DNA of 64,000 nt from Novipirellula herctigrandis (GTDB taxonomy: Bacteria; Planctomycetota; Planctomycetia; Pirellulales; Pirellulaceae): NCBI GenBank assembly GCA_007859835.1, contig SJPJ01000001.1:4128623-4192622 (forward strand), read 5' to 3'. Both the position numbers and the translations under genes were made by a program. Of this stretch, positions 6,136 through 62,639 are shown one piece after another. The notes under the pieces are model-generated. The model had not been told where the DNA came from. It did not search any database and saw only the letters and a list, made by a program, of their open reading frames with translations. Position 1 is the stretch's first letter. Every line of letters starts with the position of its first letter.

Positions 6136-6171
6136 TGATCTGATTGCGGTTGTTGATCTGATTGCGGTTGG
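6136..6171. repeat. Two 18-bp direct repeats at a translation start
   Basis: Units 6136-6153 and 6154-6171 differ only at the last base (TGATCTGATTGCGGTTGT/G). They occupy the leader of the minus-strand GXGXG gene, ending 2 bases from its ATG, where a ribosome-binding site would be expected. Confidence 0.9.
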
Positions 6172-6266
6172 TGGAATCGCGGCACGAAAAGGAAACGCCG
6201 CTCGGTTATTGTATCATCGAACAATCGATTGAGGTAATTCCAAAACGACTCATCCGCCCACGGCTA

Positions 6267-7508
6267 TCAAATCATTCCCGCCAACTCGGTCGCCCGATGC
6301 ACCCGCGCGATGCCAATCATGTAGGCGGCCGTCCGCAACGAAACATTGTGTTTTTTCGCAGTTTCCCATATTGTTTCAAACGCTTCATTCATCGTGTGGT
6401 CAAGTTCCTGGCGGACCCGATCGAGTGACCAACGGTAATGCTGACGGTTTTGAACCCACTCAAAATAGCTGACCGTTACTCCGCCTGCATTGGCTAGGAT
6501 ATCGGGCAGTACGATCACACCACGCTCCTGTAGCACGATGTCTGCTTGCGGCAAAATCGGGCCATTCGCAGCTTCGATGATCACCTTGGCACGAATATCG
6601 TCAACATTTTCTTCGGTGATCACGCCTCCAAGCGCTGCCGGAATCAAGACCGAAACGTCCTCGAGGTTTAGCAACGCATCCCGCGGAAGTACCTCGCATG
6701 GCTCAAAACCTTCGATGAACCCCTTGGGGTGTTTCATCGTGTGACGCAACAATTCCCGCACCTCCAATCCCTCCGGATTGTAATAGGTACCGGTGACGTC
6801 GCTGACCGCGACGATTGGAAATTGAGCTTCGCTTAGAAATTTTGCTGCATGTGTTCCCACATTTCCGAATCCTTGGATGGCAATGTTTGTGGCTTCCGGT
6901 TTCATCCCAAGCCGACGAACGAGTTTGACGGTCAATGTTCCGACGCCACGACCGGTTGCTTCTTCTCGCCCGCGTGCTCCGTATTCTTCGACCGGCTTTC
7001 CGGTAATCACAGCGGGATTGAACCCGTGATACTTTTCCCATTGATTGCGAAACCAAGACATCACCAGATGATCGGTCCCCATGTCAGGAGCAGGAATGTC
7101 AGAATCAGGACCTACGACATCATGAATTTGGTCCACAAAGGCACGCGTTAATCGTTCGATTTCTCGTTCGGATAGCCGAGTAGGATCCACTCCGATCCCG
7201 CCCTTTGCACCACCATAGGGCAGATTCACCACAGCCGTTTTCCAAGTCATCAAACAGGCAAGCGAACGTACTTCGTCGAGGTCTACTTTTGGATGAAATC
7301 GCAAACCACCTTTCATCGGCCCACGCGCGCTATCATGCTGAACGCGGAAACCAACGAAGTTGGCTAATTGCCCATTGTCCATTTCGATCGAAACTTGGAC
7401 TTGGATTTCGCGATTCGGCATCAGCAACGCTTCACGCATGGCAGGGTCAATTTTCAAGTGCTCTGCCGCGGCATCAAAAAAGATTTGGGTTGCTTCGAAC
7501 GCTCGCAT
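6267..7508 (-). CDS. gdhA: Glutamate dehydrogenase (Glu/Leu/Phe/Val dehydrogenase family)
   Basis: The 413-residue protein is a full-length hexameric-type GDH. It carries GPMKGGLRFHP and PYGGAKGGIGVDP (substrate and catalytic lysines), PDMGT, the NAD(P)-binding GFGNVGTHAAKFL and the C-terminal PDILANAGGVTVSYFEW. It interconverts glutamate and 2-oxoglutarate plus ammonium. Cofactor preference cannot be read with certainty. It is the first gene of a minus-strand nitrogen set followed by the GXGXG and FMN glutamate-synthase-like genes, which suggests a shared role in ammonium or glutamate handling. The start is ATG at 7506-7508. Confidence 0.96.
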   Translation of the reverse strand: MRAFEATQIFFDAAAEHLKIDPAMREALLMPNREIQVQVSIEMDNGQLANFVGFRVQHDSARGPMKGGLRFHPKVDLDEVRSLACLMTWKTAVVNLPYGGAKGGIGVDPTRLSEREIERLTRAFVDQIHDVVGPDSDIPAPDMGTDHLVMSWFRNQWEKYHGFNPAVITGKPVEEYGARGREEATGRGVGTLTVKLVRRLGMKPEATNIAIQGFGNVGTHAAKFLSEAQFPIVAVSDVTGTYYNPEGLEVRELLRHTMKHPKGFIEGFEPCEVLPRDALLNLEDVSVLIPAALGGVITEENVDDIRAKVIIEAANGPILPQADIVLQERGVIVLPDILANAGGVTVSYFEWVQNRQHYRWSLDRVRQELDHTMNEAFETIWETAKKHNVSLRTAAYMIGIARVHRATELAGMI

Positions 7509-7642
7509 CTATCGGTCACTCCAATGATGAAGAAAAAAACATCATGCAATAGAATAGCACGACTGGAAGTCCCCCTAAGAGCAGCGACAGATGTCAGCCC
7601 TTTCCTGCAATCCCGTTTCGTGCAATACCTTACAGTGCAATC

Positions 7643-9223
7643 CTACGCCGAGCGTCGGACTTCGTGCACCGGTGCGATATTGGAAATGCTTCGTATCCAT
7701 TTAGCTATTTCCGCACGACTGGGGGCTTTGGCTCCGCGCAGGTAACGCCGTCCCGCCGAGGTGGTGGAATAGCGAAGCACCTCTTGATGCAAGAAACTGA
7801 TGTCGCACTTTGCCAAATCCGCAGCATTTCGACAACCTGCGCCAGCCAACATTTGCACATCGCGGGCTCGCAAACCAGGGACCTCGCACATCAGCGTCGT
7901 CTGCGTTTGCCATAATGCGACGGTTTCGTCAGTAATCCAATAGGTCGCAAGCTGCTTGGCAACCACTTCGGCAGACGCGTCGAGAAACTCACCGACCAAG
8001 TGGATCCCGATCGCCTCGAATCGAGCAGCCGTTTTGGGGCCAATCGACGGGGCATCGACCAACGCATCTCGCCGCGAAAGACTTCCAAGCTGCGGCGATG
8101 GGCGATTCATCGCAATCGACACAGGATTCCCGCGCTCATCATATCGCACCGAAGTGCCGGTGGTCTGGGCCGCTTCGGACGCGTCGACATCGACATCTGC
8201 AAACGGATCGACATCTGCAAACGGATTGTCGGAATCCGCCGCCGTCACGGCAATCTTCGTTTCCGTCGACTCCAATTGCCGCTTGCGTTGGGCCTTCCAA
8301 CGAAGCTCGTCGCGGTGCACCTTGACTACACGGTGAACCACATCAACATCACTAGGCAAATGCTCGCGAACGTCGCCGGTGCGTTGGTACTCACCAAATA
8401 GCTTTTCAATCTTGATCTTTTGAACTTTCGATTCAATTCGGCGAAGCCACAAACGAGTTGGCACCTTGATCGTCGACATCAGCATCGGCAGTGTTAGTGA
8501 TCCAGTGGGCAAAGGCTTTGCACGAAGCGACTCCGCATCGAGCGAGGCTCGCTCGAGCACGCGAGCCCACCCCGTAATCGCCAATCCAAAAAGCTCGCTG
8601 AGCATCGCATGGGTGTCATGGTCAAAACCGGCCTGCGGGTCTTTCACGCCCTCATCCAATCGATAGTGATCAATCAAGAATTGGTACTTTCGGTTGGCAA
8701 AACGGGCTCCATGCAAAATGGCTTCTCCGAGCCATCCGGGATGGTCCGACATCTGGAAAACGACTCGAAGCTCATCATCGACCCAATTTTGATAGATCGA
8801 GTGGTACGATTTTGTGACGCTCCATTCAATCGGTCGATGCAACACCTTTTCACGTTCGCATTGGGCCGTGTGCAGCGGCATCATCGGGTCCGTGAAGTAA
8901 TGACTAAGTACGCCAGCCGCATGAGCCGCGTCGCGGAAGCGATCCGTTCGCAGGTATTTCATCAGTCGGTCATACCATTGATGAGCCACTCTCGGGGCGC
9001 CGCCCCAATAGCCATCGTTCACATGGACGACATGGTTTTGAAAATCACGGAACCGAGTATCGGGGTCTTTTGCGCCCGTTAAATATCGGTCATGGTGCTG
9101 AAGCAGTAGGTTCGATAATCGTTGGCCGCTGTCGGTTTGAACAAGGGGAAGGGCATCGATTGCAAAATAGTGATGCGTACTTCGGCAGTGAGCCGCTCGC
9201 AAAATCGAAAGCAGTGGTTTCAT
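7643..9223 (-). CDS. Zinc-dependent phospholipase C-like domain fused to DUF4332
   Basis: The N-terminal 240 residues show the helical Zn-phospholipase C/S1-P1 type metal site: an early HHYFAID, a central HAAGVLSHYFTDPMMPLHTAQ-type block (HxxxDxxxPxH) and a later HYR and HDTH. After a basic, charged linker comes a C-terminal helix-hairpin-helix DUF4332 module with the two typical half-repeats (PSIGPKTAARFEAIGI and VPGLRARDVQMLAGAG). The linker contains an in-frame DPFADV duplication. No signal peptide is evident, so it may be cytoplasmic. The start is ATG 9223, directly preceded by an in-frame GTG. Substrate is unknown; DUF4332 hints at binding of nucleic acid or another protein. Confidence 0.75.
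   Translation of the reverse strand: MKPLLSILRAAHCRSTHHYFAIDALPLVQTDSGQRLSNLLLQHHDRYLTGAKDPDTRFRDFQNHVVHVNDGYWGGAPRVAHQWYDRLMKYLRTDRFRDAAHAAGVLSHYFTDPMMPLHTAQCEREKVLHRPIEWSVTKSYHSIYQNWVDDELRVVFQMSDHPGWLGEAILHGARFANRKYQFLIDHYRLDEGVKDPQAGFDHDTHAMLSELFGLAITGWARVLERASLDAESLRAKPLPTGSLTLPMLMSTIKVPTRLWLRRIESKVQKIKIEKLFGEYQRTGDVREHLPSDVDVVHRVVKVHRDELRWKAQRKRQLESTETKIAVTAADSDNPFADVDPFADVDVDASEAAQTTGTSVRYDERGNPVSIAMNRPSPQLGSLSRRDALVDAPSIGPKTAARFEAIGIHLVGEFLDASAEVVAKQLATYWITDETVALWQTQTTLMCEVPGLRARDVQMLAGAGCRNAADLAKCDISFLHQEVLRYSTTSAGRRYLRGAKAPSRAEIAKWIRSISNIAPVHEVRRSA
8191..8226. repeat. In-frame 2 x 18-bp tandem repeat
   Basis: Perfect units CGACATCTGCAAACGGAT at 8191-8208 and 8209-8226, with a partial third on the left. 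They encode the hexapeptide DPFADV twice in the linker of the phospholipase-like/DUF4332 protein. Confidence 0.93.
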
Positions 9224-9365
9224 CACGTCACGAACCGTTGGCGTTTAGAGAGTCTTTCATCAGGACGGAGTAGCCGCACCGGCCCAAGTCTGCCATCTTT
9301 TTCGCCACGACGGCAAGAGAGATCCGGGAATCGACTCGTCTCGTTTGCCCCCCCGTTAGCTTTGC

Positions 9366-9426
9366 CACCGATTACTTTGCCACCGACTTACTTTGTCACC
9401 GACTTACTTTGTCACCGACTTACTCG
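9366..9426. repeat. About four copies of a 15-16 bp repeat spanning a stop codon
   Basis: The unit is CACCGACTTACTTTGT. Copies lie at 9366-9380 (15 bp variant), 9381-9396, 9397-9412 and 9413-9426 (partial). The last copy contains the TAA stop (9420-9422) of the minus-strand TIGR03790 gene, so each further copy carries another TAA. Confidence 0.92.
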
Positions 9427-11486: not shown

Positions 11487-11609
11487 AAAAAGGTCCTCAA
11501 CTTCGAGTGGATCAACGGTTCTTCAATGTAATCGAAACTGGCCCGATTGTCTGTCGCTGCCCTTTCGCATCAACAGCCAATACGGATAATTCTATAGCTG
11601 CTGTCAAAT

Positions 11610-12308
11610 ATGTTGGCTCTATCAAAGGTGCGTCCCAAGTTGAACGAAACGAAACCCCAATCGCTAATTGATCCATCGTTCTTGTTTCGGTTCGAAGTTC
11701 GGTTGACTCAAGACGATCTGGCTTGGACCACCAAAGGTTTGTCACTTCCTGAGAGCTGCCGTCTGCCTTCGTTCGGTGCTCTTGCTGATCGAAATGTGTT
11801 CGCAGATGTACGGATGGCTTGGAACGCATCCGGATTGGGCATTCAAGTCAGCGTAGCGGGAAAGCGTCAATTGCCGTGGTGCCGTGATTCGCGGCTTGAC
11901 GACAGCGACGGATTCCACCTCTGGATTGATACACGTTGCAGTCCTGGGATTCACCGCGCGACTCAGTTTTGTCATCGCTTTCTTTGGATGCCGGCTGGTG
12001 GTGGACCGAAACGAGAGACCCCGGTCGCGGCCTGGATTCCGATTAACCGAGCCAGAGCGAATCCGAAACCGGTTGCACCCGATGCACTGAAGATCGCCGC
12101 AAGCCCTCGTCACGACGGTTATCAAATGTCGGGCTTTGTTCCTGCCAAAGCACTCACGGGATACGACCCAGTCGACCAACCTCGGATCAGTTTGTATTAC
12201 GCAGTGATTGACCGTGAATTGGGGTGGCAAACGTTGACACTCGGCCCCGAATATCCTGTCTTGGAAGATCCGAGTTTGTGGGGCGAGGGCGAACTCAGTC
12301 GCGCATGA
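11610..12308 (+). CDS. CBM9-like conserved planctomycete protein
   Basis: This 232-residue protein has an all-beta pattern like carbohydrate-binding module family 9. It has an opening DPSFLFRFE, VRMAWNASGLGIQVSV, a DGFHLWIDTR block and a C-terminal ISLYYAVIDRELGWQTLTLG with a short acidic end. No signal peptide is visible. Such proteins are widespread but uncharacterised in planctomycetes; polysaccharide binding is a family-level guess. It is divergent from the TIGR03790 gene and convergent with the membrane protein gene. A long opposite frame over the same bases lacks any recognisable domain and was left out. Confidence 0.65.
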   Translation: MLALSKVRPKLNETKPQSLIDPSFLFRFEVRLTQDDLAWTTKGLSLPESCRLPSFGALADRNVFADVRMAWNASGLGIQVSVAGKRQLPWCRDSRLDDSDGFHLWIDTRCSPGIHRATQFCHRFLWMPAGGGPKRETPVAAWIPINRARANPKPVAPDALKIAASPRHDGYQMSGFVPAKALTGYDPVDQPRISLYYAVIDRELGWQTLTLGPEYPVLEDPSLWGEGELSRA

Positions 12309-12444
12309 GCCCAATGCGATGATGTTGGAATCGATATTTTTGGGTGATGGTGTTCTGGCTGTTTCCAATGAATTGCCCGGGTCGCTGGCTCGCTCACAAA
12401 CGAAACGGCAAACGCCATCAACAGGCAAAACAACGCTCGTCGAA

Positions 12445-12489
12445 TGTAGCCCACTGAAATGTAGCCCCGTGAACTGTAGCCCCGTGAAC
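12445..12489. repeat. 3 x 15-bp tandem repeat beyond a gene end
   Basis: Units TGTAGCCCACTGAAA, TGTAGCCCCGTGAAC and TGTAGCCCCGTGAAC lie at 12445-12459, 12460-12474 and 12475-12489. They sit a few bases past the stop of the minus-strand membrane-protein gene, in the gap between convergent genes. Confidence 0.9.
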
Positions 12490-12494
12490 TGTCA

Positions 12495-13229
12495 CTACAT
12501 CATGCCACCGCCACCCATCTGACCGCCGGGGGATGGCGAAAATGGATCCGGAAACACATTTGCCGGGGCGACCGTCGACGCGGCAAACATCCAAACGCCC
12601 AATGTGATGGCCAATAGAATGATGGCCAATCGTTTTCGCTGCCATGTAAACACCAACACCATTGACGCGGCCGTTAGTGATTGAGAAAACGCCACGATGA
12701 CGCCCCAATGTGATGGTGGTTGTAGTGACAAACGCTGCCATCCAAAACAAGCCATCGCGATGCCAAGCGTTACCCAAAACAGGTCGACGAGCTCGATTTG
12801 GCGACGGTGTTTGGATTGCACCAAGAAGCCATTGACCAACGGACGCAGCGAAATCGCGATCGCAAATGTCAGCGTCCATTGGAAAAGAAGTTCGTCGAAC
12901 CAGTAAAGCCGTTTCGTGCCATGCTGCATCAAGGAATCGAACACGTTGTGCGCTCCCGCTGCGTGGGGTCCGAGAAAGCCAAACAAGATAACAAGTAATG
13001 CTAAGAGCCCATGCCAACCTTTGATGCCGTACCAAGTGGCATAGACGATCATGACGTGTGCTACCAACGTGTAACCGGTGGCGAGCCCCAGCGAGAAAAA
13101 GGCAAGCGCAGCGTCAGTTTCTCTCAACGGAACCGGCTCGGTCGGATCGATGGACCAGAACCAAAGGGTTGCATGTAGCACTAAAAAGAGCGTGACCAGT
13201 TGCAATGCGACCGGCCAACGAATCGTCAT
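12495..13229 (-). CDS. Multi-spanning membrane protein of unknown function
   Basis: About 244 residues with roughly seven hydrophobic helices (first VALQLVTLFLVLHATLWFW, last LAIILLAITLGVWMFAAST) and a Gly/Met-rich C-terminus (GGQMGGGGMM). The pattern HNVFDSLMQHGTKRLYWFDEL lies in a loop or helix end. I do not recognise the family. The frame is open to an ATG at 13313, adding 28 mostly non-hydrophobic residues; I prefer ATG 13229 because MTIRWPVALQLV is a natural membrane-protein start. It is divergent from the AsmA-like gene. Confidence 0.6.
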   Translation of the reverse strand: MTIRWPVALQLVTLFLVLHATLWFWSIDPTEPVPLRETDAALAFFSLGLATGYTLVAHVMIVYATWYGIKGWHGLLALLVILFGFLGPHAAGAHNVFDSLMQHGTKRLYWFDELLFQWTLTFAIAISLRPLVNGFLVQSKHRRQIELVDLFWVTLGIAMACFGWQRLSLQPPSHWGVIVAFSQSLTAASMVLVFTWQRKRLAIILLAITLGVWMFAASTVAPANVFPDPFSPSPGGQMGGGGMM

Positions 13230-13475
13230 CAAAGCGGCAGAGCGAGTTCGGTTCAAATTCAACGCCACAAACAGATGAGTTGCCAGGAATCCTGGCGCGA
13301 GTGCAGGCGTCATCCTCTTCTGCGAGAGGTGACTACCTCAAATCTAGCAGAATATGCATCGCCGATGCTATCAAAACCCGCTGTAAATCTGTCTTGGGTT
13401 CGCCGGTCGTTTCTGGTTACACTCCACACTTGCCTCTCTTCTCATATTTGTGTGGTCCGCGGCAAGGATGTTTCC

Positions 13476-19787: not shown

Positions 19788-20909
19788 TCAACTGCCAACG
19801 AGGCGATCGTAAAACGTGCGGGCGCGGCTTGGGTCGTCGGTTCCCTCAATCACCGCACGGCCGTCGGCGAAGAGTGTCAAACGAAGGCTGGCTTGCCGTG
19901 GTTCACTTACCCACTGAAGCCGAACAAAAAAACGCGTTTGCTGGACTTTGCCTTGACTTTGCCAGCGTTCAGCGAGCGATTGCAAATCAACACGAATCTT
20001 TGAACCCGGCGTGATCTGGACAGCGTTGCGACCGCACAGCACGATCGTTGAACCGCCGGCGGATCCCGAAGTGGCGGATCCCGAAGTGGCGTCGAGAAAA
20101 TCGTAAACACGCTCTTTGCACGCCTGGCAAGATTCACTTAACGCAGGATCGATCGCCAATTCACGAATCCGGTTTTGCCAAAAGTCAAAGGACCAAACCT
20201 TGCTGTGAACGGAATCTTGGTTTCCCGAAAGCCACTTGATCGCCTCGATTGCCTGCAAACTGGCGATCGCGTGCGTTGCGGCGCCAATCACGCCGGCGGT
20301 GTCGCATGTAGCAACCGAGGCGGGGGGAGGTGGTTGTGGCACCAAGCATCGAAAACAGGGGCTTCCCGCTCCCGAAAACAATCGAACCTGTCCTGATGCA
20401 CCGACACAACCACCATGGACCCACGCGGTGGTGTTTTTGAGCGACCAATCGTTAAGCAAAAAACGGATAGCAAAGTTATCGGCCGCATCGATTACTAAAT
20501 CAGACCCTTGAAGAAGCGAATCGATATTGTCGGCGGTGACATCGGCGACAAGTGGTTCGATGGCGACTTTCGAGTTAATGCTCTCCAATCGCTCGGCAGC
20601 CGCTTGAGCCTTGGCGCGTCCCTGTGTCGCGTCAGATTCGTCAAACAGGGATTGCCGTTGCAGGTTGGTCCATTCAACAATATCACGATCGATCAACCGC
20701 AAGTGTCCGACCCCGGCACGAGCGAGGATCTCGCAGGCGACGGTGCCGAGCGCACCACATCCCAAGACACTGACGGTCGATTGCGATATCATGCTCTGGC
20801 CCGATACACCAACAGGCCCAAATTGAACCTGACGCGCATATCGACCATTTGCATCCCCTGTACCGGAGTGTCGATCATCTGTGATTTGATCGTCGTTAGA
20901 ACCCTGCAT
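19788..20909 (-). CDS. ThiF/MoeB/HesA-family adenylyltransferase (E1-like)
   Basis: The 373-residue protein has the E1 nucleotide-binding fold (VLGCGALGTVACEIL, LRLIDRDIVEWTNLQRQ) and the DAADNFAIRFLLN segment. It also has two CxxC pairs (CFRC and CQAC) for structural zinc and GVIGAATHAIASLQAIEAIK. It should adenylate the C-terminus of a ubiquitin-like sulfur carrier (ThiS/MoaD type) for thiamin, molybdopterin or thiolation, but no carrier or rhodanese is nearby. The C-terminal 100 residues are beta-rich and not a rhodanese. An in-frame 15-bp duplication gives SGSATSGSA in the linker. It is divergent from epmA with only 34 bp between starts. Confidence 0.85.
   Translation of the reverse strand: MQGSNDDQITDDRHSGTGDANGRYARQVQFGPVGVSGQSMISQSTVSVLGCGALGTVACEILARAGVGHLRLIDRDIVEWTNLQRQSLFDESDATQGRAKAQAAAERLESINSKVAIEPLVADVTADNIDSLLQGSDLVIDAADNFAIRFLLNDWSLKNTTAWVHGGCVGASGQVRLFSGAGSPCFRCLVPQPPPPASVATCDTAGVIGAATHAIASLQAIEAIKWLSGNQDSVHSKVWSFDFWQNRIRELAIDPALSESCQACKERVYDFLDATSGSATSGSAGGSTIVLCGRNAVQITPGSKIRVDLQSLAERWQSQGKVQQTRFFVRLQWVSEPRQASLRLTLFADGRAVIEGTDDPSRARTFYDRLVGS
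20061..20090. repeat. In-frame 2 x 15-bp tandem repeat
   Basis: Perfect units GGATCCCGAAGTGGC at 20061-20075 and 20076-20090. They lie in the interdomain linker of the ThiF-type protein and encode a duplicated Ser/Ala/Thr/Gly pentapeptide. Confidence 0.93.
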
Positions 20910-24006: not shown

Positions 24007-24843
24007 ATGTTAATCGCGTGCGTCCAGACCGATATTGCGTTTGCTGATTTTGACAAAAACCGCCGCCAGCTTGTCCAATGGATGCATCAAACGGGCGAAA
24101 AGGGGGCCAACTTGGTCGTTATGCCCGAATGTATGCTGAGCGGATATGCATACGAAAGCCGTACCGAAGCAATCGAACAAGCGATCTCGGTCCATCATCC
24201 CGTTTTCTCGGAAATTGGCGAAATCGCAAAACAGTACGATATGCATGTGACTTTTGGTTTTCTCGAAAAAGATGACGATCACCTGTTTAATTCGGTAGTA
24301 ATGATTGGCCCAGCCGGGATTGCCGGTCAATATCGCAAGATTCATTTGCCGCATTTGGGGGTCGACCGGTTTGTCGATCGCGGCGACTTTGCTTACCAGC
24401 CATTTTCCGCAGGTCCGGCAAAGGTTGGACTCGCAATTTGCTACGACTCCTCGTTTCCCGAACCAATGCGTGTGCTTGCCCTTGAGGGCGCGGACATTAT
24501 CGCATTGGGTACCAATTGGCCTAGCGCCGCCCAGCGGACCGCCGAAATTGTACCGCCCGCCAGAAGCATGGAGAATCATATTTTCTTCGCAGCGGCGAAC
24601 CGAATCGGCAGCGAAGGTGGGTTCGAATTCTGTGGACACAGCTCCATATGCGGCCCGGATGGGGTCATTTTGGCACAAAGCCATGACGCTCAACCGACGA
24701 TTTTGTACGCCGACGTCGACTTGGAACAAGCCCGAAATAAGCGAATCGAACGCACTCCCGGAGCTCACGTGATCGACCGCTTCCAAGATCGATGCCCCCG
24801 CTTCTACGGGGCCATCACCAAAAAGACGACCAACAACGGTTGA
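24007..24843 (+). CDS. Carbon-nitrogen hydrolase (nitrilase superfamily)
   Basis: The 278-residue protein has the Glu-Lys-Cys triad as E41 (MPECML), K111 (YRKIHLP) and C145 (ICYDSSFPE), with the N-terminal VQTDIAF strand typical of the family. It hydrolyses an amide or carbamoyl substrate, but the branch cannot be fixed from sequence alone. AAGGA lies about 10 bases upstream of ATG 24007. The stop codon is inside a 13-bp tandem duplication and a T-rich hairpin follows. It appears monocistronic. Confidence 0.88.
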   Translation: MLIACVQTDIAFADFDKNRRQLVQWMHQTGEKGANLVVMPECMLSGYAYESRTEAIEQAISVHHPVFSEIGEIAKQYDMHVTFGFLEKDDDHLFNSVVMIGPAGIAGQYRKIHLPHLGVDRFVDRGDFAYQPFSAGPAKVGLAICYDSSFPEPMRVLALEGADIIALGTNWPSAAQRTAEIVPPARSMENHIFFAAANRIGSEGGFEFCGHSSICGPDGVILAQSHDAQPTILYADVDLEQARNKRIERTPGAHVIDRFQDRCPRFYGAITKKTTNNG

Positions 24844-24858
24844 CCACAACGGTTGTAA
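24833..24858. repeat. 13-bp tandem duplication across a stop codon
   Basis: ACAACGGTTGACC (24833-24845) is followed at once by ACAACGGTTGTAA (24846-24858). The TGA of the nitrilase-family gene (24841-24843) is in the first copy. Confidence 0.75.
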
Positions 24859-27776: not shown

Positions 27777-29221
27777 CGCTCGCCTTTTAGCTCGTCGGTC
27801 GATTCGTGCAACGGCGAGCCCAATAGCAAGCCTTGTTGGCGGGGTCCAACCTTGTGGGGGCCTCGTTCGTGACGGCCTCGTTCGTGACGGCCTCGTTCGT
27901 GACGGCCTCGTTCGTGGGGGCCTCGTTCGTGAGCGTTGTCGACTCGCAAAATTTTCGACGCTGCCGAGTGCAATTCAGCCGAGAAATGGCTTCGCGATGT
28001 TAGCACCAAAAACGGCGTGCCTGGCATCATTTGTACGACTTCGTCACATGCTTTGTCCGCATCCGATATTGAGGTGTTCTTGGCTTGAGCCAATCTTATC
28101 AAGAGTGTTTCTAAATCACTCGAGTGACTCGATGATCGGCTCTGTTCCTGCAAACGTTCGGGGTCTTCGCCTGTAATGATCATTTGAACCCCAATCCCGC
28201 GTTGGCGAAGTTCCGTGATCGCTGTCGCCGCCAACGACAAAACACGCTCCACACCTTCATCGCGATCTTGCGCAATGGCATGCTTGTTTTTCACATCGGT
28301 CTCGGGAGCCGTGTCGACCAACATCACCGCAGTACGAACGCCTGGTGATCGAAACTCTCGGACAATTGGTTTTCCCAAACGAGCCCAGGAAGCGAAATCC
28401 CAACGTCGTACGGGCATCCCCGTTTCGTATTCTCGGCTGCCAAAATAATCGCAGGCTTCAGCGGTTTTAAATTGACGCGCCCAATTCGACAAATCCGACA
28501 ATTGCCCACCGGCTACCGCATCGTCTCCTTCGGCCAACAACCGCGGTGTCACTGCGATAGTTGTACTACTCGGGAAAACAGTCGTCGACTCATACAAACA
28601 AAACGGGAAGAGTGATTTAACACGCACACGAGGCAACTTTTGAATACCGCGATAAGAATACGCGATCGAGGCTTCAATTGATACGCGCTCACGAGGTCCA
28701 ATCAACGACACCGCCACTTCGTCCGATTTCACTTCATAGGTTCGGTATTTTGATTGGGATCGCGAGTGTTTCCGACTAAACAAAGTCCGTTTTCGAAATA
28801 GAGATCGTGTTTCTCTGGAGTCAAATCCAACGAGCAATTGCAGTGCAGGCAAAGGACGCCGGTTCTTTAAATGCATTCGCAGTGGTACCGCTTGCCCCGC
28901 TTCGACACTTCGCGGCAAGGAAAATCCGATTGCTAACTTTGGCATTAGAAAGCGATTGACGACTAATCCAATCGCCATCGCGGAAACGCATCCAGCGAAT
29001 AAGCCGATCCATGGATAGCCCCATAAAATATTGAGCGTCACAATGCCAATGAGCAGCAAGGAAACCGATGCGGCAGTGGCCGAGCGTCGAATCGCCAGCG
29101 CCGTTCGAATTGGCGAAACAATCACCGCCAACAGAAAACGCAGCAATTTACCGAAGTAGAACCATCCACGATTCGGTTTCTCGTTGCTTGCGATGGTCGT
29201 GGTTCCCAACTCGGCACTCAC
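27770..29221 (-). CDS. DUF58-domain membrane protein
   Basis: The 483-residue protein has two N-terminal membrane helices (about 48-85), a beta-rich region, then the DUF58 core FGSREYETGMPVRRWDFASWARLGKPIVREF and a von Willebrand A-like part (VMLVDTAPETDVK...). Together with MoxR ATPases these proteins form a family linked to complex maturation and envelope stress. The C-terminal tail carries five imperfect copies of a pentapeptide rich in H, E, R and G (15-bp DNA units). GTG start overlaps the MoxR stop (GTGA) and the stop overlaps the helicase start, so the three genes are tightly coupled. Confidence 0.88.
   Translation of the reverse strand: MSAELGTTTIASNEKPNRGWFYFGKLLRFLLAVIVSPIRTALAIRRSATAASVSLLLIGIVTLNILWGYPWIGLFAGCVSAMAIGLVVNRFLMPKLAIGFSLPRSVEAGQAVPLRMHLKNRRPLPALQLLVGFDSRETRSLFRKRTLFSRKHSRSQSKYRTYEVKSDEVAVSLIGPRERVSIEASIAYSYRGIQKLPRVRVKSLFPFCLYESTTVFPSSTTIAVTPRLLAEGDDAVAGGQLSDLSNWARQFKTAEACDYFGSREYETGMPVRRWDFASWARLGKPIVREFRSPGVRTAVMLVDTAPETDVKNKHAIAQDRDEGVERVLSLAATAITELRQRGIGVQMIITGEDPERLQEQSRSSSHSSDLETLLIRLAQAKNTSISDADKACDEVVQMMPGTPFLVLTSRSHFSAELHSAASKILRVDNAHERGPHERGRHERGRHERGRHERGPHKVGPRQQGLLLGSPLHESTDELKGERC
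27861..27935. repeat. 5 x 15-bp in-frame tandem repeat in the DUF58 gene
   Basis: Three perfect CCTCGTTCGTGACGG units at 27861-27905 are followed by two variants (27906-27920, 27921-27935). They encode HERGR/HERGP-type pentapeptides in the C-terminal tail. Confidence 0.95.
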
Positions 29222-35877: not shown

Positions 35878-36984
35878 TTACTCTGCAAAGACCTTCAACA
35901 ATTCTTCGGCCCATTGCTCCCAACCCTCGGCGGCCGTTTCAAAGTCAACGTGCATCCATCGCACCGGAGTTGACGGCAGCACGCGTGGCGTAAATTTGCT
36001 CGTCTGCGAAATCGGCAACTGGCTACTATCACCCATCGCCAAACGATCTTCGGTCGTTGGTGAAACCACATAGTCAGCCAAACGATCCGCGGCAGCTCGA
36101 TGCGGTGCATTCTTCAAAATCGCGACGGTGTTTGGAATCCGCAACGTACCCGGTTGGTCAGGCAATTGATCGGGAAAGACGATTGCTACGGGGCGTCCCA
36201 AATCCTTTTCGATAATCGCATCATCGGTGTCGGTTAATCCCCACGCTACCGTTCCAGCGGAAATCGCCAAGGCGACTTGTTTGTTGCCAGACAAGACAAC
36301 GGCGTTCTGTTTCATTCGACGAAGTTGATCGAGCGTTTCGCTGCGTCCGTTGATCTCTCGCAGGACGGCAAAATGGGTCGCCGTGGTTCCAAACAGCGGC
36401 CTGGCAAACGCACATTGGCCTTTCCATTTTGGATCCTCAAGATCGGAAACCGACGACGGATAATCGTTCGCATCGGGAACCAATTGAGTATTCACGATCA
36501 ACACTCGCGCCCGCGCGGCGAACCCGCACCACGATCCGTCGCTGGCGATCATGTCGGCGGGCCATCCACCTTCAACATCCCATGACCTTGGTTCTAAAAG
36601 CCCCAATTTCTGAAGCCGAACGGTGTGCATAATTTCGTTATTCCAAAATAGATCGCAGACCGGCGAGTCTTTTTCGGCAATGATGCGGTTGACTAACCCC
36701 ACGGTTTTGGTCGATTCTACATCAAACTTCGCGACCACGCTCACTTCGCCTTGGGTCGACCGCTGGAAAGCGTCGAGGATCGGTGTGGCGAATCCTTCGT
36801 CAAGTGCCGAGTAGACGACGACGTCACTTTCGGATCGCTGCACGCAACCGCTTGAGGATGACAAAACGACCATCATCAAAATCAACGCCCTGAAAATCGG
36901 CGCCCTGAAAATCGGCGCCCTGAAAATCGGCGCCCTGAAAATCGGCGCCCTGAAAATCGGCGCCCTGAAAATCGGCATCGCCAT
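35878..36984 (-). CDS. ABC-transporter substrate-binding lipoprotein, iron(III)-type
   Basis: The mature part resembles FbpA/FutA-class ferric-binding proteins: VVVYSALDEGFATPILDAF, FDVESTKTVGLVNRI, WNNEIMHTVRLQ, the central ARARVLIVNTQLV and ANTVAILKNAPH-like C-lobe. A lipobox (SSSSGC) is present. The signal peptide is abnormal: between its start (MAMPI) and the h-region lie five FRAPI units and one FRALI, encoded by 15-bp repeats, giving about 30 extra residues with an Arg every five positions. No permease or ATPase gene is adjacent. I start at ATG 36984; longer starts would overlap the divergent protease gene. Confidence 0.83.
   Translation of the reverse strand: MAMPIFRAPIFRAPIFRAPIFRAPIFRAPIFRALILMMVVLSSSSGCVQRSESDVVVYSALDEGFATPILDAFQRSTQGEVSVVAKFDVESTKTVGLVNRIIAEKDSPVCDLFWNNEIMHTVRLQKLGLLEPRSWDVEGGWPADMIASDGSWCGFAARARVLIVNTQLVPDANDYPSSVSDLEDPKWKGQCAFARPLFGTTATHFAVLREINGRSETLDQLRRMKQNAVVLSGNKQVALAISAGTVAWGLTDTDDAIIEKDLGRPVAIVFPDQLPDQPGTLRIPNTVAILKNAPHRAAADRLADYVVSPTTEDRLAMGDSSQLPISQTSKFTPRVLPSTPVRWMHVDFETAAEGWEQWAEELLKVFAE
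36881..36970. repeat. 6 x 15-bp tandem repeat in a lipoprotein signal peptide
   Basis: Unit ATCGGCGCCCTGAAA is perfect five times (36896-36970) and once with two substitutions (36881-36895). Read on the minus strand it encodes FRAPI units. Period 15 keeps the frame, so copy-number changes would lengthen or shorten the signal peptide without disrupting the protein. Confidence 0.97.
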
Positions 36985-37013
36985 GAAACGGAAAAACAGA
37001 TTAAACTGAGGGG

Positions 37014-43901: not shown

Positions 43902-43941
43902 AAACGCTCGACTTTGTTGGCGCCGGCATTCTGGGTTTCGA

Positions 43942-43975
43942 CGGAGCCGCAAATACCACGGAGCCGCAAATACCA
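43942..43975. repeat. 17-bp tandem repeat between convergent genes
   Basis: CGGAGCCGCAAATACCA at 43942-43958 and 43959-43975, with a partial third copy (CAGAGCCGC). It lies about 40 bp after the DUF1552 stop and before the rplL terminator. Confidence 0.92.
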
Positions 43976-44048
43976 CAGAGCCGCGCACAGTCGCAAATCA
44001 CATCAAGTGTCCAACCGCCTCCCCCTCGAATCCTATACAAACACGACA

Positions 44049-46182: not shown

Positions 46183-46602
46183 ATGAACGAGCCAGCAAAC
46201 AAAGCAGCGAATCATTTGGCGAAATCCAATTTGGCAAAATCCAAGTGCGTCCCCTGTGAAGGCGGGGTACCGCCGTTGGATCGCCCGTCGATCGACACCA
46301 TGATCCAGTCTTTCTCACACTGGGGTTTGTCCGAAGACGGGAAATCGATTCAGCGCAAGATCAACTGCAAAACCTTCGCAAAAGCAATCGAACAGATTCG
46401 GGAGATCGCGAGCATAGCGGAGTCCCAACAGCATCATCCGAATCTCCACTTAACCGGCTATCGCTACCTTCAGGTCGAATGGACGACTCACGCGATTGGC
46501 GGGCTTAGCGAAAATGACTTTGTCATGGCTGCCAAGATCGACCAATTACTCGACGACACATCAGTTCACGGAAAGCATTGCAGGAAACCGTCTCATGATT
46601 GA
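46183..46602 (+). CDS. Pterin-4a-carbinolamine dehydratase
   Basis: 139 residues. The family signature is HHPNLHLTGYRYLQVEWTTH (H84, H85, H103) followed by AIGGLSENDFVMAAKID; the N-terminal KCVPCEGGVPPL segment is also usual. It dehydrates 4a-hydroxytetrahydropterin and regenerates the cofactor of aromatic amino acid hydroxylases. No hydroxylase is adjacent. I choose ATG 46183; a start at 46114 would add a low-complexity tail. A 15-bp duplication gives LAKSNLAKSK in the N-terminus. Overlaps the next gene by 8 bases. Confidence 0.9.
   Translation: MNEPANKAANHLAKSNLAKSKCVPCEGGVPPLDRPSIDTMIQSFSHWGLSEDGKSIQRKINCKTFAKAIEQIREIASIAESQQHHPNLHLTGYRYLQVEWTTHAIGGLSENDFVMAAKIDQLLDDTSVHGKHCRKPSHD
46215..46244. 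repeat. In-frame 2 x 15-bp tandem repeat
   Basis: TTTGGCGAAATCCAA (46215-46229) and TTTGGCAAAATCCAA (46230-46244) differ at one base and encode LAKSN/LAKSK near the N-terminus of the dehydratase. Confidence 0.9.
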
Positions 46603-47425: not shown

Positions 47426-49213
47426 ATGCAGCGTCGATGGCGGATCATTCCTCATGATGGCTCGCGCGTCGATCAACTCGTGCGCACCGCCCGCTTACCA
47501 GCCGTCGTCGCTCAATTATTGGTAAGCCGCGGCATCTATCTTGCCGACGACGCTGCTGCGTTCATGTCGACGAAGCTGACCAACCTTCGCGACCCCCGTG
47601 AACTGCCAGGGGTTGTCGAAGCAACGAAGATCATCGCACCGGCAATTGAAGCGAAACAGCCCATCACGATCTATGGCGACTACGACGCCGATGGCATGAC
47701 CGGCACAGCGATTCTGGTCAACGGACTGCGATTGATGGGAGCCGATGTTAGCTATCACGTCCCCAACCGACTCGAAGATGGCTACGGACTCGGTGAGGAG
47801 GCAATTCGCAAGCTCGCCGATCGTGGCAAGAAACTCATCATCTCGGTCGACTGCGGAATCACCAGCCGCGAACATGCAAAGCTTTGTCGTGATTTAGACA
47901 TCAAGCTCATCATCACCGATCACCATACGATTGACGGTGACCTTCCTTGCGCCGATGCGATCGTCCACCCGCGGCTTCCTGGCACCACCTATCCGTTCGG
48001 CGAACTTTGCGGTGCGGGTGTCGCGTTCAAATTGGCTTGGGCATTGTGCCAACAAGTTTGCGGTAGCGACAAAGTCACCGATCCGATGCGCCGCTACCTA
48101 ATGCAATCACTATCGCTGGCGGCAATCGGAACGGTCGCTGACGTCGTTCCACTGCTGGACGAAAATCGCGTGTTGGTCGAGCACGGATTAAAAACGCTCC
48201 AAGCCACACCACTGCCAGGCTTGGCGGAGTTGATGAAAGTCACCAAGTTAGACCAATCCGCATCCATCACTTCGGACAGTATCGCGTTCACCCTAGCACC
48301 ACGACTGAACGCCGCTGGACGACTCGGCCAAGCCCAATTGGCCGTGGAGCTATTGACCACGCCTGGCGGAGAGCGTGCGGTGTCGCTAGCCCAGTACATC
48401 CACTCGCTCAATAGCGATCGCGACACGTTGCAGCGGAGCGTCACGCTTGCGGCACAAAAGCAAGCCAAAGAAGAATTCGACCCAACCAACGACGCGGCGT
48501 TGGTACTCGCCGGTGTCGGTTGGCACGCCGGGGTAATCGGTGTCGTCGCTGGCCGGTTGGCGGAAAAGTATGCCAAGCCCGTGTTCATCCTATCGCTCGA
48601 CTCCACCGGTAAACCCGAAGCGGTCGGATCGGGCCGCGCAGGCGGAACGGATATCAATTTGCACGAAGCGCTTAGCGAATGCAGCGAGCGCTTGGTTCGC
48701 TTCGGAGGCCACAAAGCCGCCGCCGGGCTAACGATTCTCGAAGACCAAATCGATTCCTTTCGCGGAGACTTTTGCGAAGCGGTCGCTCGCCAATGGCAAG
48801 AACGGCAAGTTGAACCGGAGATTGTGATTGACGCCGAAGCGTCGCTTGGTCAGTTGAATCTCGAAACAGCCAAGCATATCGAAATGCTGGCGCCATTCGG
48901 TGCCGGCAATCCTCGTCCAATTTTATTTTGCGGTGGGATCGAACTTGATGAACCAGCAAGACGCATGGGCGGCGGCGACCGTCACTTAAGCGTCAAGTTG
49001 AAACAAGGGACTAAAACCGTCCGAGGCGTTGCGTTTGGAGCGGGTGATTGGTGCGAGGTCCTGAACGAAATCAAGGGCCCGATCGAAATCGCTTATCGCC
49101 CAGTGATCAACGAATTCCGCGGCTTCCGCAAAGTAGAAATTCATTTGGTTGACTGGCGAATTTCGGCAACCCAAGGACGTCCGACCAAAACTTCCAAGGC
49201 AGTCACCACATAG
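47426..49213 (+). CDS. recJ: Single-stranded-DNA exonuclease RecJ
   Basis: 595 residues with the DHH phosphoesterase motifs: YGDYDADGMTGTA (motif I), VDCGITS (II), DHHTIDGD (III) and the DHHA1 part with GSGRAGGTDINLHEAL and FGGHKAAAGL. A C-terminal OB-like domain follows (LAPFGAGNPRPILFCG). It degrades ssDNA 5' to 3' in recombination and mismatch repair. ATG 47426 is chosen for GGAG 8 bases upstream; the earlier in-frame ATG gives an unconvincing extension. Confidence 0.95.
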   Translation: MQRRWRIIPHDGSRVDQLVRTARLPAVVAQLLVSRGIYLADDAAAFMSTKLTNLRDPRELPGVVEATKIIAPAIEAKQPITIYGDYDADGMTGTAILVNGLRLMGADVSYHVPNRLEDGYGLGEEAIRKLADRGKKLIISVDCGITSREHAKLCRDLDIKLIITDHHTIDGDLPCADAIVHPRLPGTTYPFGELCGAGVAFKLAWALCQQVCGSDKVTDPMRRYLMQSLSLAAIGTVADVVPLLDENRVLVEHGLKTLQATPLPGLAELMKVTKLDQSASITSDSIAFTLAPRLNAAGRLGQAQLAVELLTTPGGERAVSLAQYIHSLNSDRDTLQRSVTLAAQKQAKEEFDPTNDAALVLAGVGWHAGVIGVVAGRLAEKYAKPVFILSLDSTGKPEAVGSGRAGGTDINLHEALSECSERLVRFGGHKAAAGLTILEDQIDSFRGDFCEAVARQWQERQVEPEIVIDAEASLGQLNLETAKHIEMLAPFGAGNPRPILFCGGIELDEPARRMGGGDRHLSVKLKQGTKTVRGVAFGAGDWCEVLNEIKGPIEIAYRPVINEFRGFRKVEIHLVDWRISATQGRPTKTSKAVTT

Positions 49214-49650
49214 CCCCCTCGGGTCCGAACGAGCATAGCTTGATCGCACGTTCAGTGCGTTTTGGGCCACGCGAGCGTTCTCTCTACGCCTGGAAACGCC
49301 CTCCCTCCGCCAGGAAACGGACGACGCGATGCAACCTGCTGCCTAAACGAGCATCGCTCGGCCCCAGTCCACCGATGCCAAAAACCTTCTGGCAAGACCG
49401 GACGTTACCCGCTGATTCGCAATTCGTCACTCTTCGTCAGCCCACCAACGACAATAACCCAGCTCAACGACAACCTGAGAGACATAGGAAATCGCTAACG
49501 ACGAGATTACCAGCCTTGTATACCTGCAGCAGATTGCGGGTTAACATAGTTCTGTAAGAAACGTCAATGGTGACGCTTGCTGTTCCGGGGTTACCCCGGG
49601 CGGACACTCCACCAAGGCATGATCAAACAAGCTCTTGCGAGGCAGGAAAG
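49214..49650. other. Intergenic region (437 bp) with leader hairpin
   Basis: No gene is supported; short frames here are Arg/Pro-rich and lack features. A strong hairpin CCGGGG-TTA-CCCCGG (49585-49599) lies in the presumed oad leader about 50 bases before oadG, and TTGCGG-15-TAAGAA upstream could be a promoter. Confidence 0.3.
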
Positions 49651-51773: not shown

Positions 51774-53492
51774 ATGCCCTTCAAAAAACTCGTATCGCAA
51801 AAGAACATCATGCGCCCCATCTCGATTTTCTTCGTCTTGTTATGGTCAACCGTGCTGCAAGCGGCCGATTTCGCGCCGAGTGCACCACTCGTACCAAACG
51901 AAATGCTTCAGCCGAGTGATAGTTATAGCCTCATCTACCTTCCCGGCGACTATTCCTTGGCATGCGATCTGATCCACGAACTGAACGCGATGGGCGATCC
52001 GCAATTTCGCGTGCCGAGCATACGCGACCTTGATCCCACGCAACCGTCCCAAGATGGCGAACTTTGGAAACCCATTTTCGATGCTTTTGCAGAAGCAACC
52101 GGTCAGGACCTCCAAGAAATTGATGTCGATGATGCCGTGCCCTTTGAGTTCCCGTTGTTTACTCATACGGTCGAGAGCAAGGGAATGATGAAGCCGAGCG
52201 GATCACTCGTAATGGTGATTCCGAACCAAGGAAAATCCGTAGCAAATGAATTTCAATATCGCCTCGATTCACTTTATCAGGCCCGTGGCTATTCCTCGGT
52301 GCCACGACCAAAACGCATCGCCGAAAGCGAAGGCCTTGGATCGATGCTGAGCAGCGGATTGAGCAAGCTTTGGAATTCCAGCGGCGTGGCACAGATCGGT
52401 TGGAGCTTTGGAAACTACTTGATGGTCGGCGTCGCTTTGGTGCTGATCTATCTCGGGATTGCAAAGGGCTTCGAGCCGTTGCTTTTGGTTCCGATTGCAA
52501 TGGGATGTATCTTCGTCAATTGCATCGGTGCCAACATGGTGACTCCGGCCAGTCCGGTTGGTAACGACGGCGGCCTGCTCTATTACTTTTTTTTCTATGG
52601 GATCACGACAGGAATCTTTCCACTATTGATCTTTCTCGGGGTCGGAGCCCTAACCGATTTCGGCCCGCTGCTCGCCAACCCATGGAGTGCATTGCTTGGA
52701 GCGGCAGCCCAGTTCGGCATCTTCGGTACATTCTTGGTCGCCGCTTCGGTTGGTTTGTTTACGATGCAAGAGGCCGGTGCGATCGCGATCATCGGTGGCG
52801 CCGATGGGCCGACATCAATCTACGTGGCAAGCAAGTTGGCCCCCGATTTACTCGGTGCCATCGCTGTGGCTGCCTATAGCTACATGGCTTTGGTCCCAAT
52901 TATTCAGCCGCCGATCATGAAGCTGCTCACCAATGACGACGAGCGGAAAATCATGATGGAACAGCGACGACCGGTCAGCAAAAATGCAAAAATCCTGTTT
53001 CCCATCGTCGTCATTCTGCTTTGCCTGCTGGCACTTCCCGACGCGTTACCCCTGATCGGCATGTTGATGTTCGGCAATCTCCTGCGAGAAAGCGGTGTAA
53101 CCGAGCGATTGTCCAAGACGGCTCAGAACGAATTGATCAACCTTGTCACCATCGCCCTCGGTTTGGCGGTGGGAACGAAGCTATCCGCCGATGCGTTTTT
53201 GAACCCACGTACGCTGATGATTGTGGTACTTGGCTGCGCCGCGTTTATGGTCGGCACAGCGGCCGGCGTTCTCATGGCAAAAATCATGAACAAAGTATCG
53301 GGTGGTCGTATCAATCCTCTGATCGGCTCGGCCGGCGTTTCGGCGGTTCCGATGGCAGCACGCGTGTCCCAGGTCGTCGGTGCGCAATACAATCGCCAAA
53401 ACTTGTTGCTGATGCATGCGATGGGGCCAAACGTCGCCGGCGTTATCGGCTCCGCGGTCGCCGCTGGGATTCTGATTTCATTGCTCGGATAG
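51774..53492 (+). CDS. oadB: Sodium-pump decarboxylase beta subunit with extra N-terminal domain
   Basis: 572 residues. Residues 205-572 are Oad[21 protein letters not shown] followed by [40 protein letters not shown] and the C-terminal [15 protein letters not shown]. In front is a signal-like helix ([18 protein letters not shown]) and about 155 residues (31-185) with no OadB homology, presumably outside the cytoplasmic membrane. OadB normally has about 380-430 residues. ATG 51810 is an alternative start. The stop codon lies inside a 17-bp tandem repeat. 65 bp after oadA. Confidence 0.9.
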
Positions 53493-53527
53493 CTTCATTG
53501 CTCGGATAGCTTCATTGCTCGGATAGC
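53477..53527. repeat. 3 x 17-bp perfect tandem repeat across the oadB stop
   Basis: TTCATTGCTCGGATAGC repeats three times (53477-53493, 53494-53510, 53511-53527). The TAG of oadB (53490-53492) is in the first copy; later copies are outside the gene. Confidence 0.97.
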
Positions 53528-54173: not shown

Positions 54174-54176
54174 TAG

Positions 54177-55607: not shown

Positions 55608-55620
55608 TTGCTTGCCACTT

Positions 55621-58968: not shown

Positions 58969-59181
58969 TTTGCTTCTATCGAATCTAACCCGAATGATAG
59001 TACTCGGTAAGCAGGAAGTTTTCACAACCAAATTTGTGTCCCTCAACGCTATTTTCCTATTGAATTAAATTCCTACAACACTGAGTTAACAGCACTTTCA
59101 TCGCCCGGCGGCTAGCGAATCGGAATGCGGAATTTTCGTGTTCGACACGCTTATTGGTAGGATGAAAAGGAAACCAAGCTT

Positions 59182-61302: not shown

Positions 61303-61352
61303 ATACGCTTTTGATAGCTACGTACGTACACCTTGAGATTTATTGGACTTTC

Positions 61353-62639
61353 ATGACGAACATTCAGCTTCTAATGGGTATTTTGGCTTGGATCGCGACG
61401 ATTGCGATTTCAGTGCCACTATGCCTATTATCACTCGAATGTTTGCTCGGGGCCATTTCGCCATCACACAGCCGCATTCGACGCAGTGGAATTCGACGCA
61501 GTGGCGACCGGCTAAAAAAAGACGAAAAAGCATCTCGCCCAAGTGTCGATGTGGTGGTTCCGGCGCATAACGAACAAGAAGGTTTGGCGAGCTCTCTGAA
61601 TTCGCTGTTCGCGTCACTTCGTGATGACGATCGGGTTTATGTGGTCGCAGATAATTGCACCGATGCCACCGCAAGCATCGCCCGAAAGCTTGCTAAATCA
61701 AATGAGTCGCCGGTGCAGTTATATCTGCTCGAACGGTTCGATGATGCCAACCGTGGAAAGGACTATGCATTGCGGTGCGCATTTGATGTGCTCGATGCGG
61801 AAACGCAAGAAGATGCCAACACCGCAAATCGCGTTGTTATGATTGTTGATGCCGATTGCCAAGTCGACGCGGATGCGATCGATCATTTGGCATCACAGGT
61901 CGCGCGTACTGGTCGGCCCGCTCAAGCAAGTTACATGATGCGACAACCGGCGCACTTGCCAGCGACTGCAAGCCGCGTTTTGTTAGAATTTGCCTTCACG
62001 ATCAAAAATCATGTGCGTCCCCTCGGTGTGTCGCGACTCGGAGGTGCTTGCACTCTATTTGGTTCTGGAATGGCGTTTCCAAGGGATTTAGTTAGCCGTT
62101 TGACGGGCCCCGGCGGCCATTTGGTCGAAGACATGCGTTGGACATTTGACATGGTTTTGGCGGGCCGGCCGGTCGGGTTCTGTCCTGATGCGAAGTTGGT
62201 GGCAATGTTCCCAACGTCAACCAAAGCGGCTGATACTCAGCATCGTCGTTGGGAACATGGGCATCTGCAATTGGCGACTTCGCAACTGCCAAGGCTGATC
62301 GGCAGTTGGATGCGAGCCCCGCGATGGTACACCGTCGTCGCAGCGCTCGATTTGATGATCGTCCCACTGTCACTGCTTGTCGCCGCTTCACTCGTGGTCA
62401 GCAGTTTTAACCTGGTGGTTTACTTGACAACATTAAACATTTGGCCCATGGCAATTTTGGCGATCAGCTTAGCGGCAGCCAGTGTCAGTTTAATCGCCGC
62501 TTGGTGTCAACATCGGCCTGGCAATGCGACATTTCGTATGCTGCTAGGCATTCCGGCCTATGCTTTTCGCAAGCTTCCGCTGTATACGAGGTTCCTGTTT
62601 CGCCCTGAGCGTTCGTGGATTCGGACCGACCGGAGTTAG
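61353..62639 (+). CDS. Family 2 glycosyltransferase, membrane-bound
   Basis: About 428 residues: N-terminal helix (LMGILAWIATIAISVPLCLL), a GT-A core with VDVVVPAHNEQEGLASSL, VVADNCTDATASIA, VMIVDADCQVD and the acceptor/processive-type VEDMRWTFDMVLAG and QHRRWEHGH (Q-x-x-R-W). Three membrane helices follow. It resembles processive synthases. The frame extends to a TTG at 61311; ATG 61353 gives the better membrane start. A 15-bp duplication encodes RRSGIRRSG. Confidence 0.87.
   Translation: MTNIQLLMGILAWIATIAISVPLCLLSLECLLGAISPSHSRIRRSGIRRSGDRLKKDEKASRPSVDVVVPAHNEQEGLASSLNSLFASLRDDDRVYVVADNCTDATASIARKLAKSNESPVQLYLLERFDDANRGKDYALRCAFDVLDAETQEDANTANRVVMIVDADCQVDADAIDHLASQVARTGRPAQASYMMRQPAHLPATASRVLLEFAFTIKNHVRPLGVSRLGGACTLFGSGMAFPRDLVSRLTGPGGHLVEDMRWTFDMVLAGRPVGFCPDAKLVAMFPTSTKAADTQHRRWEHGHLQLATSQLPRLIGSWMRAPRWYTVVAALDLMIVPLSLLVAASLVVSSFNLVVYLTTLNIWPMAILAISLAAASVSLIAAWCQHRPGNATFRMLLGIPAYAFRKLPLYTRFLFRPERSWIRTDRS
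61476..61505. repeat. In-frame 2 x 15-bp tandem repeat
   Basis: ATTCGACGCAGTGGA (61476-61490) and ATTCGACGCAGTGGC (61491-61505) encode IRRSG twice in the GT2 protein, in the cytoplasmic stretch after the first membrane helix. Confidence 0.93.

Follow-up and report, generated by a model that had tools for sequence, protein, structure and literature searches.

In yeast rad27/FEN1 and Escherichia coli polA mutators, duplications between short direct repeats arise from unprocessed flaps. For the E. coli allele topA R168C, duplications of 2–19 bp have been described in galK, with point mutations not significantly altered; in the part of that account considered here they are said to arise without pre-existing repeats and by an unknown mechanism, and the origin of tandem repeats from repeat-free sequence is likewise described as unknown (PMC6954433). 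Within the phylum, tandem-repeat behaviour is partly known from lake Planctomycetota, where structural variants abound within populations and noncoding variants, often located at tandem repeats between genes, have been attributed to slippage; unit length, frame analysis and a contrast among related species do not figure in the sections of that work consulted (PMC9426551). By the criteria of one survey, as far as its consulted part goes, only 18 bacteria exceeded four satellites per Mb (PMC6749651).

The DNA analyzed here, a stretch of 64 kb (the window; positions 4128623–4192622 of contig C1) from a genome of 9.5 Mb (G000), resembles slipped-strand minisatellites or VNTRs in having perfect short units of varied copy number (two to seven copies were observed) within and between genes. 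Gene content, genome size and relatives suggest that the genome belongs to the planctomycete family Pirellulaceae. Unlike usual VNTRs with few loci per genome, about 100 short arrays per Mb with a narrow unit size were encountered, as counted by criteria which differ from those of the survey in the part of it considered (PMC6749651). Like the duplications of topA R168C as reported in the consulted text, those found here are head-to-tail duplications of non-repetitive local sequence of up to about 20 bp (intergenic periods 10–26, mode 15), and the homology-free share and the size of the duplications are also alike (PMC6954433). They are unlike those of this laboratory allele, with its repeat-independent events and lengths from 2 bp, in occurring in a natural lineage with a mode of 15 bp, often in multiple copies and frequently with an overlap of at least three bases at the junction. 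A literature search found no report of such a duplication bias in this lineage, and the contrast between species of one genus, the unit size and the frame filter were not encountered in the excerpts consulted from the literature found.

An initial annotation of the window had listed about a dozen separate loci with head-to-tail repeats, and such repeats were indeed present at all 12 positions, as Tandem Repeats Finder and the copies listed for each position showed (Table 1). Eight arrays passed a strict test, defined as a run of matches of at least one period at periods 11–30, that is, at least two perfect copies, while the remaining four have two copies and failed because of a single base at the edge, a mismatch or an indel of one base. 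Twenty second-order Markov shuffles of the window yielded one array in total versus the eight observed, and a single first-order shuffle yielded none with a period of at least 12. The annotation had further assigned periods of 15 and 18 to reading frames and periods of 13, 16 and 17 to stop codons or intergenic DNA. This holds for the arrays within genes (8189, 20058, 27859, 46214, 61476), for that at 36878 in an open frame before the called start, for those spanning stops (9360, 24828, 53477) and for the intergenic one at 43941; multiples of three are, however, not confined to genes, as the arrays at 12445, in intergenic DNA, and at 6136, in an open frame just before an ATG, both demonstrate. 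Judged by eye, the 36878 array resembles a putative lipoprotein signal peptide lengthened by repeats. The window also contains a RecJ gene at 47426–49213 with its three Pfam domains.

Table 1. Tandem arrays at the 12 positions of the window, with unit length, copy number, outcome of the strict test and genic context.
Position	Unit (bp)	Copies	Strict test	Context	Peptide
6136..6170	18	1.9	failed	open frame, 2 bases upstream of ATG of a GXGXG-domain gene (minus)	
8189..8226	18	2.1, perfect	passed	in frame, DUF4332 gene 7643–9223 (minus)	PFADVD PFADVD
9360..9424	16	4.1	passed	over stop codon of minus-strand gene ending 9420	
12445..12492	15	3.2	passed	between genes	
20058..20091	15	2 + 4 bases (GGCG)	passed	in frame, ThiF-family gene	ATSGS
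24828..24855	13/14	2, one indel	failed	across stop codon of plus-strand gene ending 24843	
27859..27932	15	4.9	passed	in frame, near C-terminus, DUF58 gene (minus)	(HERGR)n
36878..36976	15	6.6	passed	solute-binding-protein gene (minus), open frame ahead of conserved part	MAMPIF(RAPIF)n...SSSSGC
43941..43984	17	2.6	passed	between DUF1552 gene and next gene	
46214..46244	15	2.1, one mismatch	failed	short low-scoring ORF	
53477..53527	17	3, perfect	passed	unit = last 13 coding bases + stop codon + one base, OAD_beta gene	
61476..61504	15	1.9	failed	in frame, near N-terminus, glycosyltransferase gene	RRSGI

The genome was sampled in forty evenly spaced stretches of 20 kb on contig C1 (800 kb), which held 84 arrays (105 per Mb; 92 in 864 kb or 106 per Mb with the window) versus a single array in total when each stretch was shuffled once, so that in the window and in the genome sample the density lies well above chance. 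Intergenic DNA of G000 carried 274 arrays per Mb and coding sequence 65, and about a thousand arrays per genome would be expected if the samples are typical. Relatives were represented by one genome per species, with 40–120 kb per genome outside the genus. Within the genus, G001 presented 46 arrays in 280 kb (164 per Mb; 21 in 80 kb selected around a homologous gene, and another 25 in 200 kb elsewhere), as opposed to five in 280 kb of G002 (18 per Mb; three in 80 kb and two in 200 kb sampled in the same way, with none in 42 kb of intergenic DNA). Two species at six to nine times the array density of a third (106 and 164 vs 18 per Mb) constitute a natural experiment within one genus. G014, a member of another genus, had five arrays in a small sample of 60 kb, and 14 other planctomycetes together had 22 in 980 kb: 12 in 120 kb of G030 (nine with a period of 12 bp; three independent places), four in 120 kb of G013, two in 80 kb each of G008 and G021, one in 60 kb each of G059 and G034, and none in G041, G042, G052, G015, G006, G020 and G023 (60 kb each) or G025 (40 kb). 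E. coli K-12 displayed none in 100 kb. When only loci separated by over 200 bases were counted, densities per Mb were 83 in G000, 111 in G001, 83 in G014, 18 in G002 and 0–25 in all others. Binomial rate tests separated G000 from G002 (p = 7e-7), G001 from G002 (p = 2e-9) and G000 from the 14 others (p = 1e-13), under an assumption of independent arrays that is violated by clustering (4 kb bins: mean 0.43, variance 0.83). The excess of arrays is genome-wide and confined to some lineages; the process, first taken to be strain-specific, should therefore be called lineage-specific, with G001 at the same or a higher density, G014 joining in its small sample, and G002 and the 14 others much lower.

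The units are preferentially about 11–21 bp long with a mode of 15 bp. With the strict test the 800 kb of G000 gave the following counts (period:count): 9:10, 10:3, 11:6, 12:11, 13:1, 14:5, 15:26, 16:5, 17:5, 18:12, 19:2, 20:1, 21:5 and few longer, the count at period 9 including chance matches (two in one shuffle of 400 kb). When a 14-base match was required at all spacings in 864 kb, four arrays had periods of 2–10, ten a period of 12, 36 of 15, 17 of 18 and seven of 21, with few beyond, although at periods under 14 two copies do not suffice for this test, which hence understates short units; its mono-base counts, inflated by N runs, were set aside. Intergenic arrays alone were distributed as 10:1, 11:6, 12:2, 13:1, 14:5, 15:9, 16:3, 17:6, 18:3, 19:2, 20:1, 21:2, 22:1, 23:1 and 26:2; without the repeat-rich stretches L037, L089 and L093, 31 intergenic arrays remained, led by periods of 15 bp (eight) and 17 bp (five).

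Selection for frame, as proposed in the initial annotation, was supported. Genes were called with a simple hexamer caller (609 genes, 81% coding) for arrays of period 10–60, and periods divisible by three accounted for 43 of 45 arrays in genes of G000, one of six at stop codons and 16 of 45 in intergenic DNA, class counts being approximate as the caller shortens some starts (the 36878 array was placed outside its gene despite a continuous frame). Genes and intergenic DNA differed strongly (Fisher p = 1e-9), and the intergenic share was compatible with one third (p = 0.75). In-gene periods were 12, 15, 18, 21 and 27; the two arrays that deviated had periods of 10 and 16. Without L037, L089 and L093 and at periods 11–30, multiples of three amounted to 43 of 44 in genes, one of four at stop codons and 13 of 31 in intergenic DNA. 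In G001, called as for the full set of G000, they made up 16 of 19 in genes, 13 of 33 between genes, none of two at stops and the only one at a gene edge. The difference between genes and intergenic DNA in G000 hence points to a process that duplicates irrespective of frame and sequence, though with a size preference, and is then filtered by selection, which seems to retain only copies that leave genes intact.

Synteny was too poor for a comparison by region, and homologous pieces were therefore sought by DNA; a contig scan for relatives returned five distant MAG contigs, which were left out of the comparison. Relatives could be aligned at nine of the 12 places (6136, 9360 and 12445 being left out), and apart from 46214, which was uninformative, the same repeated unit was seen by eye in no relative. 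At 53477, G002 has the gene end once and then its own stop, with 12 of 13 coding bases of the unit identical, and at 20058 the alignment with G001, G015 and G002 shows a gap of 18 columns; at these two sites the extra copies are absent from the relatives and the units are, judged from the aligned sequences, duplicated local sequence. At 8189, 24828, 27859, 36878, 43941 and 61476 the repeated unit was absent from the relatives by eye, in alignments that are poor around these arrays, and arrays were mostly located where sequence conservation ends. An imperfect repeat at 7081, outside the 12 positions, was common to all five genomes aligned. Adjacent copies without mismatches occurred at 24.3 per Mb for periods 14, 16, 17, 19 and 20 and at 55.6 per Mb for periods 15, 18 and 21; for the same period classes the values were 9.3 and 11.6 with one mismatch, and 12.7 and 15.0 with two as compared with 4.6 and 2.7 in the controls. 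In G001 the far-spacing control was itself elevated at zero mismatches (20.2 and 15.5 per Mb), for which longer repeats are the probable reason. As perfect copies outnumber decayed ones, the arrays are either young or constantly remade.

Junctions were studied in 125 arrays of G000 and G001 without L037, L089 and L093, from which arrays with more copies or a unit-like neighbour were left out and 53 clean two-copy arrays kept. Overlaps of at least three bases were present in 22 of these as compared with 2.7 expected without homology, and no overlap in 19 as compared with 29.7 expected; the mean overlap was 3.37 bases in G000 (n = 30, five without overlap) and 1.39 bases in G001 (n = 23, 14 without overlap). 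Homology thus appears to aid the events without being required for many of them, and the two genomes differ in this respect.

We consider it probable that mutation in the lineage of G000 and G001 is biased towards fresh tandem duplications of about 11–21 bp of local non-repetitive sequence, generated by replication misalignment and filtered by frame. While DNA is replicated or a gap repaired, a nascent strand or displaced flap would most likely re-anneal some 15 bases back, with short stretches of homology assisting in many cases, and the segment would be copied twice; once two perfect copies are present, ordinary slippage, a plausible mechanism already named in the initial annotation, would add or remove whole units. 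Selection would then purge out-of-frame events in genes, leaving 12, 15, 18 and 21 bp there and any length in intergenic DNA and at stop codons, arrays would turn over rapidly, and the cause may lie in an inherited alteration of an enzyme of replication or DNA topology. Against such misalignment weigh the arrays without overlap, particularly the 14 of 23 in G001, by which homology is dispensable for many events, and the preference for about 15 bp with hardly any short periods, unlike the prediction of ordinary polymerase slippage.

Homology-free events, frequent here too (19 of 53), are what a TopA variant or altered supercoiling might leave behind, if nicks or stable cleavage complexes were repaired with duplication of the intervening segment. 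In E. coli, topA R168C causes de novo tandem duplications independent of existing repeats, in an overlapping size range, as stated in the text consulted; microhomology, by contrast, is enriched here (22 of 53), whereas that text mentions none for the topA strain (PMC6954433). The TopA active-site motif was found in none of the ORFs of at least 600 bases in the DNA sampled. This explanation is considered unlikely.

Searches for replication and repair genes addressed their presence in the genomes. Slippage through defective mismatch repair found no support: MutS is present in all three members of the genus (MutS_V with 300.8, 300.2 and 296.5 bits in G000, G001 and G002), and an excess of homopolymers or microsatellites was not seen (11 homopolymers of at least nine bases in 800 kb of G000 vs three in 280 kb of G002; four arrays of periods 2–10 in 864 kb with the 14-base match). 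A defect in flap processing through loss of the PolA 5' nuclease domain was likewise discarded, the predicted domain scoring above the family threshold in each of the 40 genomes, which would also set the present case apart from the rad27/FEN1 and polA mutators. ExoVII, RecJ and two DnaE are present in each of G000, G001 and G002, so a loss of RecJ, ExoVII or a DnaE copy does not apply to G000 or G001. A Y-family polymerase (Pol IV/DinB) might fix duplications by extending misaligned ends, and strong Pol IV matches (E 2e-38 or better) in nine of 16 genomes include all three of high density (G000, G001, G014), with G002 yielding a single, weak Y-family match. However, six of 13 low-density genomes (G006, G013, G015, G025, G030, G041) also carry the strong match, and three out of three given nine carriers among 16 has a chance of about 0.15 (calculated by hand, ignoring kinship), so that a decisive role of this polymerase appears rather improbable.

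A tree of four proteins (1900 columns) united G000 and G001 against G002, G015, G013 and G030 with 81% ultrafast bootstrap. If it is right, one gain on the stem of G000 and G001 would suffice and G014 would represent a second gain; if it is wrong, G002 lost the bias or G001 gained it separately. Plain identity over four proteins places G000 nearer to G002 (86.2%) than to G001 (82.6%), genus members being 14–17% distant from G000, and together with the bootstrap of only 81% this weighs against the lineage-wide bias proposed above, as do the lack of a causal gene among those searched and a signal in G014 that consists of five arrays in 60 kb. More tentatively, the lineage might be a natural one with a fixed tandem-duplication mutator, in which a changed replication or topology enzyme makes duplications of 11–21 bp a major class of mutation without sign of a general mismatch-repair defect, and in which many repeats, in-frame peptide repeats included, would be born in this way and turn over fast. 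The arrays suggest how some of the short peptide repeats that lie at gene ends, in weakly conserved regions and in a putative signal peptide may have originated.

The units themselves speak for a process and not for a dispersed element, as the initial annotation had held: a MITE- or REP-like element was rejected, with only three non-local pairs among the 4186 pairs of 92 arrays sharing an 11-mer in the unit (similar arrays within 3 kb of each other excluded), each of the three linking L089 with L093, both of them purine-rich. That arrays might be adaptive contingency loci or functional amino-acid repeats, whose copy number could matter, is suggested by their occurrence in the putative signal peptide, at gene ends and in poorly conserved parts of proteins; the unrelated units, host genes of unrelated kinds, intergenic multiples of three at about one third (16 of 45) and the higher density between genes than within them render this quite improbable. 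Even less credible are staggered double-strand breaks that were filled in and joined by Ku: such end joining would yield homology-free duplications of local sequence, but searches for Ku gave no match in G000, G001 or G002, and of the eight carriers among 40 genomes searched G021, the only one sampled for arrays, has a low density. An assembly artefact can practically be dismissed, for although nine of 92 arrays have an N run at most 500 bases away versus 3.5% of the sequence (seven of 79 versus 2.5% without L037, L089 and L093), 72 of the 79 lie away from such runs, a frame filter is not expected from an assembler, and the separate assembly of G001 has the same pattern.

A preference for hairpin or purine-rich units was rejected as well. 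Units of G000 showed a purine/pyrimidine asymmetry (z 5.1) and contained few hairpins (z -4.6), GC and M/K asymmetry being slightly shifted (z 2.1 each), but neither the asymmetry nor the hairpin signal was detected in units of G001 (z -0.7 and -0.9), and in genes of G000 both were weaker (asymmetry z 0.9, hairpin deficit z -2.3). A piece of an ORF in L089, transposase-like by eye, matched no Pfam family. The stretches L037, L089 and L093 may carry the asymmetry and hairpin signals of G000.

Repeats of different kinds were found in addition to the young arrays, the lineage-specific short tandem duplications with units of about 11–21 bp (mode 15). Within the repeat-rich stretches L037, L089 and L093 of the window's genome, blocks of ~100–400 bases are held in common at 72–99% identity (among the 39 of 49 matches listed), as are purine-rich motifs such as GGAGAGGAAAAGGGG, and these blocks and motifs constitute a dispersed family, separate from the short arrays. 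The imperfect 15 bp repeat of the dehydrogenase gene was present in all five genomes aligned and, in contrast to the young arrays, is an old coding repeat.

Coordinates of the features considered
Feature	Location	Strand	Remark
Imperfect 15 bp repeat, Glu/Leu/Phe/Val dehydrogenase gene	window 7081-7110		alignment of five genomes
Repeat-rich stretches of G000 (window's genome)	L037 1750-14600; L089 3900-16740; L093 12750-16200		common sequence blocks
recJ	window 47426-49213		inside window
Second, weaker MutS-like match of G002 (same genus)	G002:C1:1596772-1597317		one internal stop codon
15 bp array in solute-binding protein gene	window 36878-36990	minus	translation read by eye

Exact arrays with periods of 28, 38, 39 and 56 bp occurred in the sister species (L061-L064, L097-L106), and none of these periods was seen by the same exact-array scan in the sample of the window's genome. 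Clustering was observed in L043, where six consecutive 12 bp arrays of the GGCTCGTCT... type span ~340 bases (12216-12552), and in another planctomycete, G030, with nine grouped 12 bp arrays.

Directly behind recJ lies an imperfect 21 bp tandem repeat (49280-49319). The second MutS-like matches of the window's genome and the sister species carry no internal stop codon, whereas that of the low-density G002 does.

In the solute-binding protein, the portion conserved among relatives begins directly past the array, which would lengthen a putative lipoprotein signal peptide, MAMPIF(RAPIF)n...SSSSGC.
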